DNA of 41,023 nucleotides from Shackletoniella antarctica. Its GTDB lineage: Bacteria; Cyanobacteriota; Cyanobacteriia; Phormidesmidales; Phormidesmidaceae. Of the stretch, positions 5,168 through 10,739 are shown piece by piece (the stretch's first letter is position 1; every line of letters begins with the position of its first letter). The DNA is taken from assembly GCA_003241845.1 (NCBI GenBank), contig QBMN01000015.1, forward strand, positions 1-41,023. Reading direction: 5' to 3'. The notes under the pieces were generated by a model. The model had not been told where the DNA came from and did not search any database. It was given only the letters and a program-made list of their open reading frames with translations. The position numbers and the translations under genes were made by a program.

Positions 5168-5205
5168 GGGAACTAGGCGAAAGAAACTAAGCCAAACAGC
5201 GGGTA

Positions 5206-5266
5206 CCCATAGAACGAGATCCCATAAAACGAGATCCCATAAAACGAGATCCCATAAAACGAGATC
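5206..5266. repeat. 15-bp tandem repeat upstream of flv1
   Basis: Four near-identical copies of CCCATAAAACGAGAT stand head to tail about 40-100 bp upstream of the flv1 start; the first copy has one change (CCCATAGAACGAGAT). They lie in the flv1 leader or promoter, so copy number could alter spacing or transcript structure. The minus strand reads through them as a repeating ISFYG peptide, but nothing suggests that reading is translated. Confidence 0.9.
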
Positions 5267-6034: not shown

Positions 6035-6388
6035 TTAGGCATATTTAAGCCGGAAGAGCCGAAAAAGGTTGTTAGAGCTGAAGCTAATCTGTTGGGTGTT
6101 GGGGATAATGGACAATCTGTTGCCGGTTACAACTTCATGTAAATCGATACCAAACCCGGACGGAATTAGTGGGCTGGCTAGCCCACTCAGCGGAACGGCA
6201 AAGGTGTCGCCGCTGGCGCTAAGGGTGATAGGATTGGGCGTGGCAGCCGCACCCGAACTACTCACCAAGCTGCCATCTACAGAAATATCGCGATTACCAG
6301 AGGCTACGCTAATGATGGGGAGCATGTCTTCCTTTCTGAGAGAAAAATCAAATCCCCAAACCATGTCCTCTGTCGTTGTTTCGGCCAC
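6035..6388 (-). CDS. Hypothetical protein beside an inverted leader duplication
   Basis: I do not recognise this 117-residue product. It starts at GTG 6388 (or ATG 6364) with AETTTEDMVWGFDFSLRKED followed by MLPIISV, then a Ser/Gly/Ala-rich stretch (about 40-75) and a basic tail NNLFRLFRLKYA. There is no signal peptide or membrane helix. Its first about 25 codons resemble a broken copy that reads the opposite way from GTG 6487 on the plus strand, and a 19-bp segment (6317-6335) is repeated exactly in inverted order at 6564-6582. It lies among gene remnants, so it may itself be a fragment or chance frame. Confidence 0.35.
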   Translation of the reverse strand: MAETTTEDMVWGFDFSLRKEDMLPIISVASGNRDISVDGSLVSSSGAAATPNPITLSASGDTFAVPLSGLASPLIPSGFGIDLHEVVTGNRLSIIPNTQQISFSSNNLFRLFRLKYA

Positions 6389-6582
6389 CTACGACCACCA
6401 ATGCATAGTTCATCTGAACTATAAAACTCTAAAGCCTTGTCCCACAAGGGCTTCGGCTTCCTGGGGACTAAGCTTGCCTAGTCTGAGTGGCCGAAACGAT
6501 GGTTAACGCCCAAAACACGTACTTCCATTGAGACCAATTTATGGGCTTTTAATCTTCTCTGGAAAAGGAAGACATGCTCCCC
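6317..6582. repeat. Imperfect inverted duplication with 19-bp exact ends
   Basis: AAAGGAAGACATGCTCCCC reads on the plus strand at 6564-6582 and on the minus strand at 6335-6317. Further inward, GTGGCCGAAAC reads at 6487-6497 and, inverted, at 6388-6378. Between these anchors both arms carry a T-rich stretch ending in TCTCT then AGAAAGG or GAAAAGG, so the arms look like diverged copies of one segment, the right arm about 24 bp longer. Both copies translate to a similar start (AET...M, then K-EDMLP), but the plus-strand copy has two stops. It may be a duplicated gene start or the ends of a small degenerate mobile unit. Confidence 0.6.
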
Positions 6583-6621
6583 GCAACCTTTCGCATTTTG
6601 CTAGCCATGGGCGATCACCCG
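6487..6621 (+). pseudogene. Broken plus-strand copy of the leader of the 6035-6388 gene
   Basis: From GTG 6487 the plus strand reads VAETMVNAQNTYFH, a stop, DQFMGF, a stop, then SSLEKEDMLPATFRILLAMG. The words AET, GF, SL-KEDMLP match the start of the minus-strand protein that begins at 6388. Two in-frame stops within 30 codons mean it cannot give that product. The resemblance is visible at both DNA and protein level, but the parent family is unknown. Confidence 0.4.
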
Positions 6622-6829
6622 GCGTAAACTGGATCTGCCCCGACGCGCAGTTGACGGTGCAGGGGGCGGCCACCGCAGCGGGCACGCTCCACAGCCAGGC
6701 CGCCAGACCCAGCACACATCCCCCAATCAAAAAACTAGCAGGCAAAACTTCTTCAAAGCGACGATCCTCACACAGCGGAACAGATCTTTTGTAGCCGCTG
6801 GCGGAATGCCTATAGACATACCTACACAA
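6539..6829 (-). pseudogene. Truncated secreted protein (signal peptide plus short mature start)
   Basis: The centre of this 96-codon frame is a clear signal peptide: a basic/acidic lead, the hydrophobic run FLIGGCVLGLAAWLW, then VPAAVAA before APCTVNCASGQIQFTPGDR. The mature start CTxNCASGQIQFxPG resembles a family of small secreted cyanobacterial proteins (recognised from memory). After PGDR the sequence loses the pattern and runs into the right arm of the inverted duplication, ending at 6539. The gene was therefore probably cut by that rearrangement. The true start may be a GTG or TTG just before LPASF rather than the ATG at 6829. Confidence 0.45.
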
Positions 6830-6867
6830 CTTGTAGGAATTGGTCTGCCTTCAACCACCACTGAGCT

Positions 6868-6908: not shown

Positions 6909-7166
6909 ATGACTGAACCCTCCGCCAGTCTACCTATTCAAACAGAGTTGATTGACGACACCAAATCGCTGGCTAAGGAGCTTGGGGTCTCTTGGAACCA
7001 GTTGGTTACCCTTGCTTTGCAAGAGTTTGTTCAGCGATACCGCAAACAGCAGAACCTGGTAGAACGTATTAACGCTGCCTGTGCAGATGAACTTGAGCCA
7101 GAGGAAGCCAACCTCTTACAAGCTATGCGCTCTAATCATCGCCGCATTGTCGAAGGCGAATGGTAA
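6909..7166 (+). CDS. Antitoxin of a MazEF-like module (ribbon-helix-helix type)
   Basis: This 85-residue protein should bind and neutralise the MazF-like toxin encoded next and repress their operon. The middle, ELIDDTKSLAKELGVSWNQLVTLALQEFVQRY (about 13-44), has the pattern of a ribbon-helix-helix DNA-binding domain, and the acidic tail with EPEEANLL is the likely toxin-binding part. The ATG at 6909 is preferred over an in-frame ATG at 6840 because the longer version only adds an unusual hydrophobic lead that crosses the repeated promoter words. Its stop overlaps the toxin start (ATG at 7160), the classic coupled arrangement. Confidence 0.8.
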   Translation: MTEPSASLPIQTELIDDTKSLAKELGVSWNQLVTLALQEFVQRYRKQQNLVERINAACADELEPEEANLLQAMRSNHRRIVEGEW

Positions 7167-7528
7167 TCAGTCAGGGGGATGTCTACTGGGTTGACTTGGG
7201 TGAGCCAGTTGGGTCAGCGCCCGGCTTTCTTCATCCCCACGTTGTCATTCAAAACGACGCTTTCAACCGCAGCAACATTAGAACTGTTGTGGTCTGCGCC
7301 TTAACGTCAAATCTAAAGCGGGCTTCTGCCCCAGGGAATGTGCTTTTGGATGTGGGAGAGGCTAACCTCCCTAAACAAAGCGTGGTGAATATTTCCCAGA
7401 TTTTTACTGTTGACAAGAGTCAGCTAGGCGAAAAGATTGGCATGCTATCGACCAGAAGGGTACGTCAGATTCTCGACGGGGTGCAGCTCTTACTAGACCC
7501 CTACGAGCTAACCGATTGGGAAAGCTGA
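7160..7528 (+). CDS. MazF/PemK family endoribonuclease toxin
   Basis: MazF toxins are single-strand-specific mRNA interferases. The 122-residue protein has the PemK pattern: QGDVYWVDLGEPVGS at the start, VVIQNDAFNRS, then VVVCALTSNLKRA and a C-terminal helix. The conserved Thr of the active site is present (T49). The usual catalytic Arg before Pro (R-P-V-V) is replaced by His: here GFLHPHVVIQ, with H25 at the position of R25 in the Bacillus enzyme. Activity may be weakened or altered. It is translationally coupled to the antitoxin. Family assignment is firm; activity is uncertain. Confidence 0.88.
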   Translation: MVISQGDVYWVDLGEPVGSAPGFLHPHVVIQNDAFNRSNIRTVVVCALTSNLKRASAPGNVLLDVGEANLPKQSVVNISQIFTVDKSQLGEKIGMLSTRRVRQILDGVQLLLDPYELTDWES

Positions 7529-7581: not shown

Positions 7582-7660
7582 CTACTCTGCGGGCACTGTG
7601 ACCATGCGCGACTCAATGCCCGCCCACACCTGGGTTGACACCCGCACCGCCGCCTCTTTG
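7582..7660 (-). pseudogene. Orphan 3' end of a second NACHT gene
   Basis: The 70 bp at 7591-7660 match 8559-8628, the end of the intact NACHT gene, at 64 of 70 positions by eye. On the minus strand they read KEAAVRVSTQVWAGIESRM and then VTVPAE and a TAG stop, in the same frame as the real gene's KEAAVRVSPQVWEGIESRM and VTVPNGVF. Only this tail is left; nothing upstream resembles a NACHT protein. The two copies flank the relBE/DUF2442 cluster as direct repeats about 970 bp apart. Confidence 0.85.
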
Positions 7661-7687
7661 CGTTTGACCTCTTTGCGTCTAATAAGA

Positions 7688-7936
7688 CTACCCACTGATT
7701 AGAGGGAATCGCTCTGGGTGCTGGATGACCTCAAGGGATAGATCAACGTCTAGTTCGGGCCAGTAGAAATGGCCCGGATGGGGTTTTTCCAGGTTGAAGA
7801 TGTGCTTGATGGGCGCATCTTTAAACCAGGGGAATTGGTCATAGGGCAAGAAATACTCGCGATCGCCGCAGAGCAGCCACAAACCGTTAGCTGAAACATT
7901 GCTAACCTTTGTCCGGGAAGTCATGATTCCATGCAT
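7688..7936 (-). CDS. DUF2442 family protein
   Basis: This 82-residue protein matches DUF2442: KVSNVSANGLWLLCGDREYF followed by the hallmark LPYDQFPWFKDAPI, and near the end GHFYWPELDVDLSLEVIQHP. The function is not established. Members often sit beside a small toxin-like protein (commonly DUF4160) and are suspected of antitoxin or DNA-binding roles. Here it lies 27 bp after a RelE-like toxin gene on the same strand, so it may be a third member of that unit. Starts at ATG 7936 or ATG 7924 are both possible; the family usually starts near the second. Confidence 0.85.
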   Translation of the reverse strand: MHGIMTSRTKVSNVSANGLWLLCGDREYFLPYDQFPWFKDAPIKHIFNLEKPHPGHFYWPELDVDLSLEVIQHPERFPLISG

Positions 7937-7963
7937 TTATGAAGTGGTCATATTGCTCCTTAA

Positions 7964-8230
7964 TCAGCTTTTGTCTCTGTAGACCTCTCTACGGTGTTTG
8001 CATTGTAAAACTTGAATCTTGAGTTCTTCGTCAAAAATTTCGTATCTGATACGATAATCTCCAACCCTGAGCCGATATTGATGGTCATAGCCTTTTAGCT
8101 TCAAAGCTCCAGACGGACGCGGTTCTGATTTGAGTGCTAAAATCTTTTCCTGAATCTTGAGTTTGACTGAAGCTGGAAGTTGAACAATCTGCTTCTGCAC
8201 CGATTTGGAAACAATCACTGAGTAAGGCAT
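7964..8230 (-). CDS. RelE/ParE-like toxin
   Basis: RelE-type toxins cut mRNA on the ribosome. The 88-residue protein has the fold's usual order: an N-terminal strand MPYSVIVSKSVQKQI, helices with LPASVKLKIQEKILALKSEP, then LKLKGYDHQYRLRVGDYRIRYEIF and a final strand with VLQCKHRREVYRDK. The Arg/Tyr-rich RLRVGDYRIRY segment and the C-terminal HRREVYR are typical of active members. ATG 8230 is preferred over GTG 8239 because AGGTGA sits at ribosome-binding distance before it. It follows the antitoxin gene by about 15 bp. Confidence 0.88.
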   Translation of the reverse strand: MPYSVIVSKSVQKQIVQLPASVKLKIQEKILALKSEPRPSGALKLKGYDHQYRLRVGDYRIRYEIFDEELKIQVLQCKHRREVYRDKS

Positions 8231-8244
8231 GATGTTCACCTAGC

Positions 8245-8484
8245 TCAGTTTGATTGGGTCTGAATAAAATCATCAATAGTCACAAAGTCACCTTGCTGAT
8301 ACTCAAGTCTGACGGACTCTATTTCGGCTTTGGTCTCGGAGTCTTCTATATAGCTATCTTCTTCCGCTTCAAAGATCTGCTGCTCAATGATGTTGAGTAG
8401 ATGTCGCTTCGCTTCTAGATCAAGAGAGGAAACGGCTTGGATGAGTGAGTCCAGGGAGATTTGCAGGCTAATGGTTGTGGTCAT
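8245..8484 (-). CDS. Antitoxin of the RelBE-like module
   Basis: This 79-residue protein precedes the toxin on the same strand, as expected. An N-terminal stretch ISLQISLDSLIQAVSSLDLE leads into a helical region LLNIIEQQIFEAEED, followed by an acidic tail ending in GDFVTIDDFIQTQS, a common toxin-wrapping ending in short cyanobacterial antitoxins (compare the YxxGxxxxIDDFI style). No clear DNA-binding fold is visible. A strong Shine-Dalgarno AGGAGG stands 7-12 bases before the ATG, and AT-rich promoter-like sequence lies at about 8500-8525. Confidence 0.75.
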   Translation of the reverse strand: MTTTISLQISLDSLIQAVSSLDLEAKRHLLNIIEQQIFEAEEDSYIEDSETKAEIESVRLEYQQGDFVTIDDFIQTQSN

Positions 8485-8543
8485 GATATTTGCCTCCTAG
8501 GGTATTTAATTTAATATATAATCCAAAATTGCTAATCCAAAAT

Positions 8544-10739
8544 CTAAAATACTCCGTTGGGCACCGTGACCATGCGCGACTCAATGCCCTCCCATACCTG
8601 CGGCGACACCCGCACCGCCGCCTCTTTGCAGCGCACCATGAGTTCTAGGGTGTAGAAATAGTCACTCAAATAATGTGCTTCCTCATCTGAAATCTTTACA
8701 TTCTCTGGATGAGCATTCAAACCTTTGAGAAAATTTTCCACGACAAACTCCATGAAGTCTATATAATTCTCTTCAGAAAATTCTTTAGTTAGGATCTTAC
8801 CTTTCATACTTTCAAGCCTATTTAATGAATTCTGAATAAGACATTCACTAAATACTCCAATTCTTTCATAATTTTTAGCACTATTCCAGATGGAAGCAAA
8901 AGTCAAATTAGAAAGAAGGTTTAACTTCCCAGATCGATTGATACTCTGGCTATTGAAGCCTCCCTCTTTGCTGAGTTCATCTTCGAGATCTAGAAAGCAT
9001 GAATAGGCAAAATCCCTGATGAATCCACATGCACAATCAATAGATAGATTAAAAGCAGGATACAAATCAATAACTAGGTATATTGCTGAAGCTCGTTTTG
9101 CAGGGGACTTGATTGCACCTGATGAGACTTGAGTAGCTTGGGTAGCCCAGAATATGAGTGCTTTTAGCTTGTCGTTAATAATGCAGGTTTGAGCCTGTCG
9201 CTCCATCGCCAGTAGCAGTTCGTCGGCTCCACGCTTGCCGGGTGCTAACCCTGCCAATAGCAAAAATATCTCTCTCCAGTGCTGCTGGGTGACGTGGTCG
9301 TGCACAAGCTGATCGACCTTTTGGTTATCAACAATGCACTTTGCGGTCAAATATTCCTGAAAGGTCAGGTGCGAAAAAGAGTAGGCATTTCTAGCCCGCT
9401 CCACCAAAATGCCCTGCTGAATTTCGATTTCTCGCAGCACGGTTTCGGCATCTAGGTGGCTGGGCACGTTGAGGTTCTCGACCAAAAATTCTCGAATTTG
9501 CTGCACCAGCCTTTCTTTAGCAAAAAAGAGTTGGTCGTCGGCAAAACTGGTGTAGGCGATCTCTGCCAGCATGTCTAGCTCTAGCTCAGCACTCAGCTCT
9601 TGATAAATCGGGTTACGCTGTATTCGCTTTTCAGAGGCCCATTTTCGCAGCAGCACATCCAGCGCTTCGCCATAGAGCGCATGACGCTTTTTTGGGAAGT
9701 CTTGAAATTCGTCGTAGACCACGCACAGTAGGGTCAGCAGTAGCGGGGTTTGGGCCAGTTCTTTGGCGGCCTGGTAGTCTTTGCCGTTCAGGAGTTCCCA
9801 GCAGCGTTCGGCGGTGTTGGTTTCGGAATCCCGTTCTTTTTGAAACCAATTTTTGATGAACTGCTGGATCTGCTCATCTTCAAAGGCGGCCATGGCTACA
9901 TCTTTGAAACGTATAAAGCCGCCAAAAGTGTCAGTCGGTACTCGACAAGAGGCGATGTAGCGGTTGTCGCTGTAGCGATCAACCAGGCTCCTAATTTCCT
10001 TGAGGGTGTGATCTAAAGTAGATCCAGGCACTTCGTCTAGGCCATCCAGTAGCACCAGCAGCTTGCCATTTTTCAAAAATAACTCGGTCAACTCTTCCGA
10101 TTCCGGGAAGCCACAGGTTTCTAGCTCAGCTGCAATTACGGCCTGAATGCTGACATTGGCCTTGTCGAACTGGCGCAGCTCCAGCATCACCGGAATGCAG
10201 GGGTGCTGGTAAAAAATGCCTTGGGGCACCAGCAGATTGCCTGGGTCTCTGCCTGCAAAGTCTCTGCGTCCCAAAGTTCGCAGCGCTTCTAGGCCCACTT
10301 TTCGCAAAAAGGTAGACTTACCGACTCCTGGCCCGCCTAACACCATGAGATGTTGCTGCTCGTTAGCGACTTGCAAACCTGGTTTTTTGTCAGCTCGCGT
10401 AACGCTGAAGCTTCGCTTGCCGCTGTTGCGGTATTGCGTTTGCAGGGCAGCTTCCGACTCAAAATATCGCAGAGCTGAGCGATCAAGCAGTTGTACGGCG
10501 GTGTAGATTTCGTCGAGCCGCACGGGGTAATCCATCCGCACGCAGGCGACTTTGAGGGTGCCGTGGCGATCAATGTAGCGTCGCACGTAGTCCACCATCG
10601 CCTTTCTCAGGGCCAGGTTTTTGCCGATGTCCCAATCGAGCTTTTTGAGGGTTTCGGTGCCCTTGTCTTTGACCAGGCTGGTGATTAGGCCACCCAGGCC
10701 AGCGGCGGCGGCTCCGATTAGGGGTTCAAATCCGGTCAT
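8544..10739 (-). CDS. NACHT-domain STAND NTPase, candidate antiviral sensor
   Basis: STAND NTPases of the NACHT class oligomerise on sensing a trigger; several bacterial ones are shown to be antiphage proteins related to animal NLRs. In this 731-residue protein the Walker A is GGPGVGKST (135-143), Walker B LLVLLDGLDEV (227-237), with sensor-like IASCRV and winged-helix SHLTFQEYLTAKCIV later. Residues 1-115 form an N-terminal effector-like region opening with a small-residue hydrophobic stretch (PLIGAAAAGLGGLITSLV) that could touch membrane. The C-terminus is a helical domain ending LELMVRCKEAAVRVSPQVWE, not LRR, TPR or WD repeats. It lies 58 bp after TenA, beside two toxin-antitoxin modules. 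The defence role is inferred. Confidence 0.9.
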   Translation of the reverse strand: MTGFEPLIGAAAAGLGGLITSLVKDKGTETLKKLDWDIGKNLALRKAMVDYVRRYIDRHGTLKVACVRMDYPVRLDEIYTAVQLLDRSALRYFESEAALQTQYRNSGKRSFSVTRADKKPGLQVANEQQHLMVLGGPGVGKSTFLRKVGLEALRTLGRRDFAGRDPGNLLVPQGIFYQHPCIPVMLELRQFDKANVSIQAVIAAELETCGFPESEELTELFLKNGKLLVLLDGLDEVPGSTLDHTLKEIRSLVDRYSDNRYIASCRVPTDTFGGFIRFKDVAMAAFEDEQIQQFIKNWFQKERDSETNTAERCWELLNGKDYQAAKELAQTPLLLTLLCVVYDEFQDFPKKRHALYGEALDVLLRKWASEKRIQRNPIYQELSAELELDMLAEIAYTSFADDQLFFAKERLVQQIREFLVENLNVPSHLDAETVLREIEIQQGILVERARNAYSFSHLTFQEYLTAKCIVDNQKVDQLVHDHVTQQHWREIFLLLAGLAPGKRGADELLLAMERQAQTCIINDKLKALIFWATQATQVSSGAIKSPAKRASAIYLVIDLYPAFNLSIDCACGFIRDFAYSCFLDLEDELSKEGGFNSQSINRSGKLNLLSNLTFASIWNSAKNYERIGVFSECLIQNSLNRLESMKGKILTKEFSEENYIDFMEFVVENFLKGLNAHPENVKISDEEAHYLSDYFYTLELMVRCKEAAVRVSPQVWEGIESRMVTVPNGVF
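8559..8628. repeat. Direct-repeat partner of 7591-7660
   Basis: These 70 bp at the end of the NACHT gene match 7591-7660 with six differences. The pair brackets the DUF2442, toxin and antitoxin genes. The differences are at scattered, partly third-codon positions, so the duplication is not brand new. Confidence 0.85.

Follow-up and report, generated by a model that had tools for sequence, protein, structure and literature searches.

Bacterial STAND/NACHT proteins act against phage and carry highly variable C-terminal sensors (PMC10907252, PMC12169576), and the DUF4160 and DUF2442 genes form the toxin-antitoxin pair dhiTA (PMC8198452). Rapid turnover is a known property of defence loci, and the order of the replacements is usually erased. 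Here we describe a stretch of 41,023 nucleotides from the cyanobacterium Shackletoniella antarctica (the window), in which gene stumps beside a NACHT gene appear to preserve the traces of two or more consecutive overwrites, and relatives still show stages of this series. We regard the locus mostly as ordinary defence-gene turnover, in agreement with the earlier note on this DNA, with a record that is unusually legible, Table 1.

The window protein shares with the bNACHT proteins (PMC12169576) the central NACHT STAND NTPase, the C-terminal helical domain and the variable C-terminal region, however it has an NCH2 domain, not NCH1 or SNaCT, and by the tools used it is not close to the tested members. 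As in other variable defence loci and toxin-antitoxin hotspots, the flanks on the ispH side and on the gene X side (see below) are conserved and the contents vary by species, but in the window the contents leave gene 3' ends from which the replacement order can be read. The dhiTA pair (PMC8198452) is intact in the alleles L051 and L053; in the window the DUF2442 gene is intact, whereas only the last 25 codons of the toxin are present. Polymorphic toxins have orphan modules from their C-terminal ends (PMC3482391), which are similar in that the C-terminal part of a conflict gene varies and leftover ends lie downstream, but the orphan in the window is the conserved end and not a usable alternative module.

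Table 1. Features of the locus, with positions in the window, strand and the evidence for each assignment.
Feature	Position	Strand	Evidence
NACHT STAND NTPase gene, 731 aa	8544..10739	-	ORF, Pfam domains, Walker motifs
Hypervariable C-terminal region, residues 566-703	8631..9044	-	low amino acid identity to congeners
In-gene conserved tail, last codons of the NACHT gene	8559-8629	-	repeat and congener alignment
RelB-like antitoxin, 79 aa	8245..8484	-	homologue neighbours RelE in L045, L058
RelE/ParE toxin gene	7964..8239	-	PF05016, 37.9 bits, cut-off 23
DUF4160 toxin remnant, last 25 codons, 5' part replaced by relBE	7905..7979	-	tblastn E 3.9e-7 to DUF4160 of L051
DUF2442 gene, antitoxin-type partner of the vanished DUF4160	7688..7936	-	PF10387, 46.8 bits
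Orphan NACHT tail, probable remnant of an earlier NACHT gene	7591-7661	-	repeat, in-frame reading, shuffle scores
MazF/PemK toxin, convergent with the NACHT gene	7160..7528	+	PF02452, 94.2 bits
MazE-like antitoxin	6910..7166	+	PF07704, 21.6 bits, below cut-off 28.3
Gene X 5' end (secreted protein), cut after codon 48	6611..6844	-	comparison with congeners

In Pfam the NACHT domain (PF05729) covers residues 181-302 with 37.6 bits (cut-off 26.7) and NCH2 (PF22727) residues 641-724 with 41.9 bits (cut-off 27); the Walker A motif GGPGVGKST is located at residues 135-143 and LLVLLDGLDE at 227-236. The conserved tail is the end of NCH2. No N-terminal effector of known type was found in the protein, and PADLOC gave only a marginal mad8 match in the window (17.6 bits over 43 residues). 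This match and one to EruA in NCBIfam, far below its cut-off, were set aside. A sequence search against solved structures returned nothing at E 0.01, and the predicted structure of the protein (9 sequences, mean pLDDT 49.6, pTM 0.34) is too poor for a fold comparison. By analogy with known bacterial NACHT proteins, we infer that the protein is an antiphage receptor and that the variable region is its likely sensor.

When ten NACHT proteins of the genus are compared in bins of 20 residues, the mean identity is 62-97% as far as residue 520, falls to 20-44% at residues 521-700 and rises to 84-89% beyond. The same pattern is seen in the family among congeners as a whole, where the first 500-540 residues are 75-90% identical and are followed by a stretch of about 140 residues, mostly 16-48% identical, and then by the conserved end. 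For the window protein, residues 585-694 are only 16-24% identical to congeners that share 79-89% over the first 500 residues. Identity in the variable region barely tracks that of the N-terminal half (Spearman 0.19, 171 pairs), with means of 20-29% in all bands. Identity of the third base at 4-fold sites, taken over five genomes, reaches 0.76 in codons 1-60 and 0.72 in the tail, 0.45 in codons 61-500 and 0.37 in the variable region; the core gene cysK has 0.69. This pattern fits a replacement of the gene interior between ends that follow the species; alternatively, it would reflect strong constraint at the gene ends. Short degenerate repeats of Ala/Leu/Asp/Arg or of Ala/Ser abound in the variable stretch of several alleles (L049-L051, L101), therefore slippage may add to the divergence. 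Diversity-generating retroelements act on short variable repeats, unlike the divergence here, which extends over about 140 residues with indels. No donor of the window's variable region was found in 388 genomes of the class, the best matches having about 45% identity, partly borne by the tail. One NACHT gene in G028 (L144, 2241-3035) has lost an internal segment in frame, so that its beginning and the conserved tail now form a single frame of 264 aa.

The last codons of the NACHT gene occur twice in the window. A direct repeat of 70 bp (64 identical), with a second in-frame NACHT end and stop about 970 bp away and relBE and DUF2442 in between, had been proposed from the sequence; the repeat is real, and we measure it as 71 bases with 65 identical and 968 bases from start to start, with the RelB-like, RelE/ParE and DUF2442 genes all lying between the copies. 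Read on the minus strand, the in-gene copy gives KEAAVRVSPQVWEGIESRMVTVP followed by NGVF*, and the orphan copy gives KEAAVRVSTQVWAGIESRMVTVP followed by AE*, both in the NACHT frame. Of the six differences, four are at third codon positions and one each at a first and a second position. The orphan tail obtains alignment scores of 112-117, against a shuffle maximum of 30 (0 of 2000 shuffles reach its score), and its homology may extend weakly to about position 7687.

The 4.7-Mb draft genome of the organism holds two copies of the tail, the pair in the window. Nearly all copies in relatives end a NACHT gene or mark a dead one, and across the order the DNA matches fall on the ends of NACHT genes or on what remains of such ends, except for one match of 29 bases in G023. 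A dispersed repeat unrelated to NACHT, the reading that the earlier note had set against its own, is refuted by the copy number and these matches. The orphan tail is very likely a 3' scar left by an earlier NACHT occupant, and it is probably functionless.

The two stops are followed by different DNA. Downstream of the orphan stop, 100 nt align to the mazF alleles L043 and L044 of G004 and G020 (scores 46 and 45, all others 6.5 or less), whereas the corresponding 100 nt behind the in-gene stop match the relB alleles L045 and L048 (66 and 41.5) and score 4.5 against the orphan flank. As one flank is of the mazF type and the other of the relB type, the orphan is best read as a 3' scar that a former NACHT gene left behind, and judged by its flank it marks where that gene ended, beside mazF.

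The DNA between the tails is itself composite. The relE frame runs into the last 25 codons of DUF4160 and stops there, an intact DUF2442 gene follows, and the DUF4160 stump is also present in G016. No intact DUF4160 toxin exists in the window, and the stump is a second orphan gene end, absent from the earlier note. Since relE is joined to this stump, the bracketed cluster is made of two layers, with relBE on top and, below it, a DUF4160-DUF2442 pair whose toxin gene has lost its head, and the full stacking in the window is relBE / beheaded DUF4160-DUF2442 / NACHT tail / mazFE. The RelB-like ORF, located 5 bp upstream of relE, has no match in Pfam, and no transposase is found among the ORFs between the tail copies.

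In most congeners that keep the gene on a long enough contig, NACHT is the neighbour of ispH (an assignment made from the ispH sequence) and is transcribed away from it. A short slot follows, and then, in several congeners, a conserved gene for a secreted product of about 148 aa that we call gene X. Across species the slot holds relBE, dhiTA-like, hicBA, vapBC or mazEF genes; for instance, it is vapBC-like with a PIN domain in G009, hicBA in G013, a hicB remnant in G011 and DUF4160-DUF2442 in G023. The earlier note suggested looking for NACHT directly followed by mazEF without the insert, and G004 and G020 have this arrangement: a convergent mazF directly follows an intact NACHT gene with its tail, and relBE and DUF2442 are lacking, however the mazF is a C-terminal remnant only. 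In G021 (L051) the order is NACHT, tail, DUF4160, DUF2442, decayed tail, hicB remnant and gene X, the decayed tail lying directly behind the DUF2442 stop with a score of 31-36 against shuffle maxima of 24-29; no tail-like match is found behind DUF2442 in L053 and L047. G001 has two extra NACHT copies on contigs that start at the gene; their slots hold a relBE remnant and DUF4160-DUF2442, in which DUF4160 contains one stop.

Similar remnants are present elsewhere, also outside the genus. In G032 (L045), another genus, a decayed NACHT gene is followed by tail, relBE, DUF2442 and a second tail; the insert is 80% identical in DNA to that of the window and the core gene cysK 79%, so that vertical descent and transfer are indistinguishable. 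In G007 the NACHT gene is gone and 55-70 nt of the tail remain before DUF2442. Short frames that hold only a NACHT end occur in other cyanobacterial genera (L133, L135, L136, L137, L139, L141, L143), and no NACHT N-terminal half was recognised within at least 3 kb upstream of these seven, although the opposite strand of L141 gives a weak match to NACHT. No other part of the C-terminal half is as well conserved as the tail, therefore its remnants are the easiest to find, a detection bias. Two NACHT genes in tandem, the other arrangement to look for, were found in other genera, intact in G065 (L101, 5137-7344 and 7658-9889) and probably in G071 (L098), where a tail lies 178 bp upstream of an intact NACHT gene at a contig end, but at the window locus none of about 25 congeners has them. 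Both genes of the L101 pair encode NACHT and NCH2 and are followed by a convergent gene resembling a phage terminase large subunit; judged from sequence, the pair is probably located in a prophage.

In the window the whole block, bounded by positions 6611 and about 10787, adjoins the stop of tenA and not the usual site between ispH and gene X, therefore its history includes a move. The genome has ispH (contig C221) and an intact gene X (C287) elsewhere, and the gene X stump is 87% identical to this resident copy and 74-81% to those of other congeners. Six relatives match the window up to the tenA stop and have different DNA beyond it. The block was probably copied or transferred and later cut. 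By the cut end of gene X lie the arms of a 40-nt inverted repeat (6317-6356 and 6543-6582), which are 83% complementary, have 186 nt between them and may form a small inverted-repeat element.

A leftover NACHT end and a leftover DUF4160 end imply that the locus was overwritten at least twice. With a probability of about 0.75, the orphan tail is the 3' scar at a locus overwritten repeatedly from the NACHT side. The oldest layer would be an earlier gene, NACHT-B, with its tail, mazFE and gene X. A NACHT allele with DUF4160-DUF2442 would then have replaced NACHT-B down to the tail, leaving DUF2442 beside the old tail, and finally relBE, arriving directly behind a NACHT tail, would have replaced DUF4160 except for its last 25 codons. 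The likely route is homologous exchange in the conserved 5' part of NACHT with illegitimate joining on the opposite side, so that each replacement would leave the 3' end of the gene that was cut, and, as suggested by known bacterial NACHT proteins, toxin-antitoxin genes would help to fix the cassettes. Both scars and the allele-specific flanks are present, and homologous intermediates occur elsewhere: the NACHT-tail-mazF arrangement without insert in G004/G020, G021 as the predicted stage before relBE, the double-tail bracket with a decayed NACHT in G032, the DUF4160 stump shared with G016, and the reduction to a tail in G007 and to NACHT-less orphan tails in several other genera. The use of one slot by differing toxin-antitoxin types agrees as well. 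Against this, the first two layers with mazFE itself are seen in no genome (G021 carries hicB instead), the mazF of G004/G020 is a remnant, and the block in the window is off its usual site. As the variable regions match no donor, toxin-antitoxin insertion behind the tail plus later changes may, though less probably, have produced the locus.

The same outcome would be reached, by a different route alone, if a complete second NACHT gene with its cargo had arrived on the upstream side of the old gene and the rest of the latter had then been lost by a deletion from DUF2442 into its tail. The tandems in G065 and G071 and the decay of NACHT genes by internal deletion (L144, L045) make this conceivable, but the lack of tandems at this locus in about 25 congeners leaves it rather unlikely. 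Of the two options in the earlier note, the loss of a NACHT gene except for its tail is clearly better supported, by the allele-specific flanks and by G004/G020. The other, a relBE-DUF2442 cluster inserted in one step with duplication of the NACHT end, is largely refuted and improbable: the direct repeats bracket the cluster cleanly in the window and in G032, yet the two tails carry different downstream flanks, 71 bp far exceeds usual target duplications, and an insert that contains a beheaded DUF4160 was not placed in one piece. We rejected a transposon insertion with target-site duplication, as there is no transposase and the copies are joined to different flank types. Equally improbable is the tail as a functional recombination anchor, at which toxin-antitoxin cassettes are gained and lost and C-terminal regions are exchanged between conserved ends. 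The high third-base identity at both gene ends and the tail-relBE-DUF2442-tail unit common to two genera speak for it, however gene-end conservation can have other causes and exchange events were not seen. The breakpoints differ in the window, G007, G032 and G016, therefore there is no fixed site, and site-specific recombination at the tail was rejected. A dedicated exchange site, where receptor C-terminal regions and the attached toxin-antitoxin cassette would be swapped between strains through the conserved ends, with orphan tails as footprints and next landing sites, is a doubtful idea to which we give little weight.

The NACHT allele series offers tractable natural material for what the variable region recognises. 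The window also contains other repeats: a perfect 27+27-nt palindrome at the start of the contig (1-54), likely an assembly end artefact, a 15-bp tandem repeat, CCATAAAACGAGATC, at 5192-5266, and just past the NACHT stop (about 8520-8550) a short TTTTGGATT-type repeat with relatives of about 30 nt dispersed in many related genomes.
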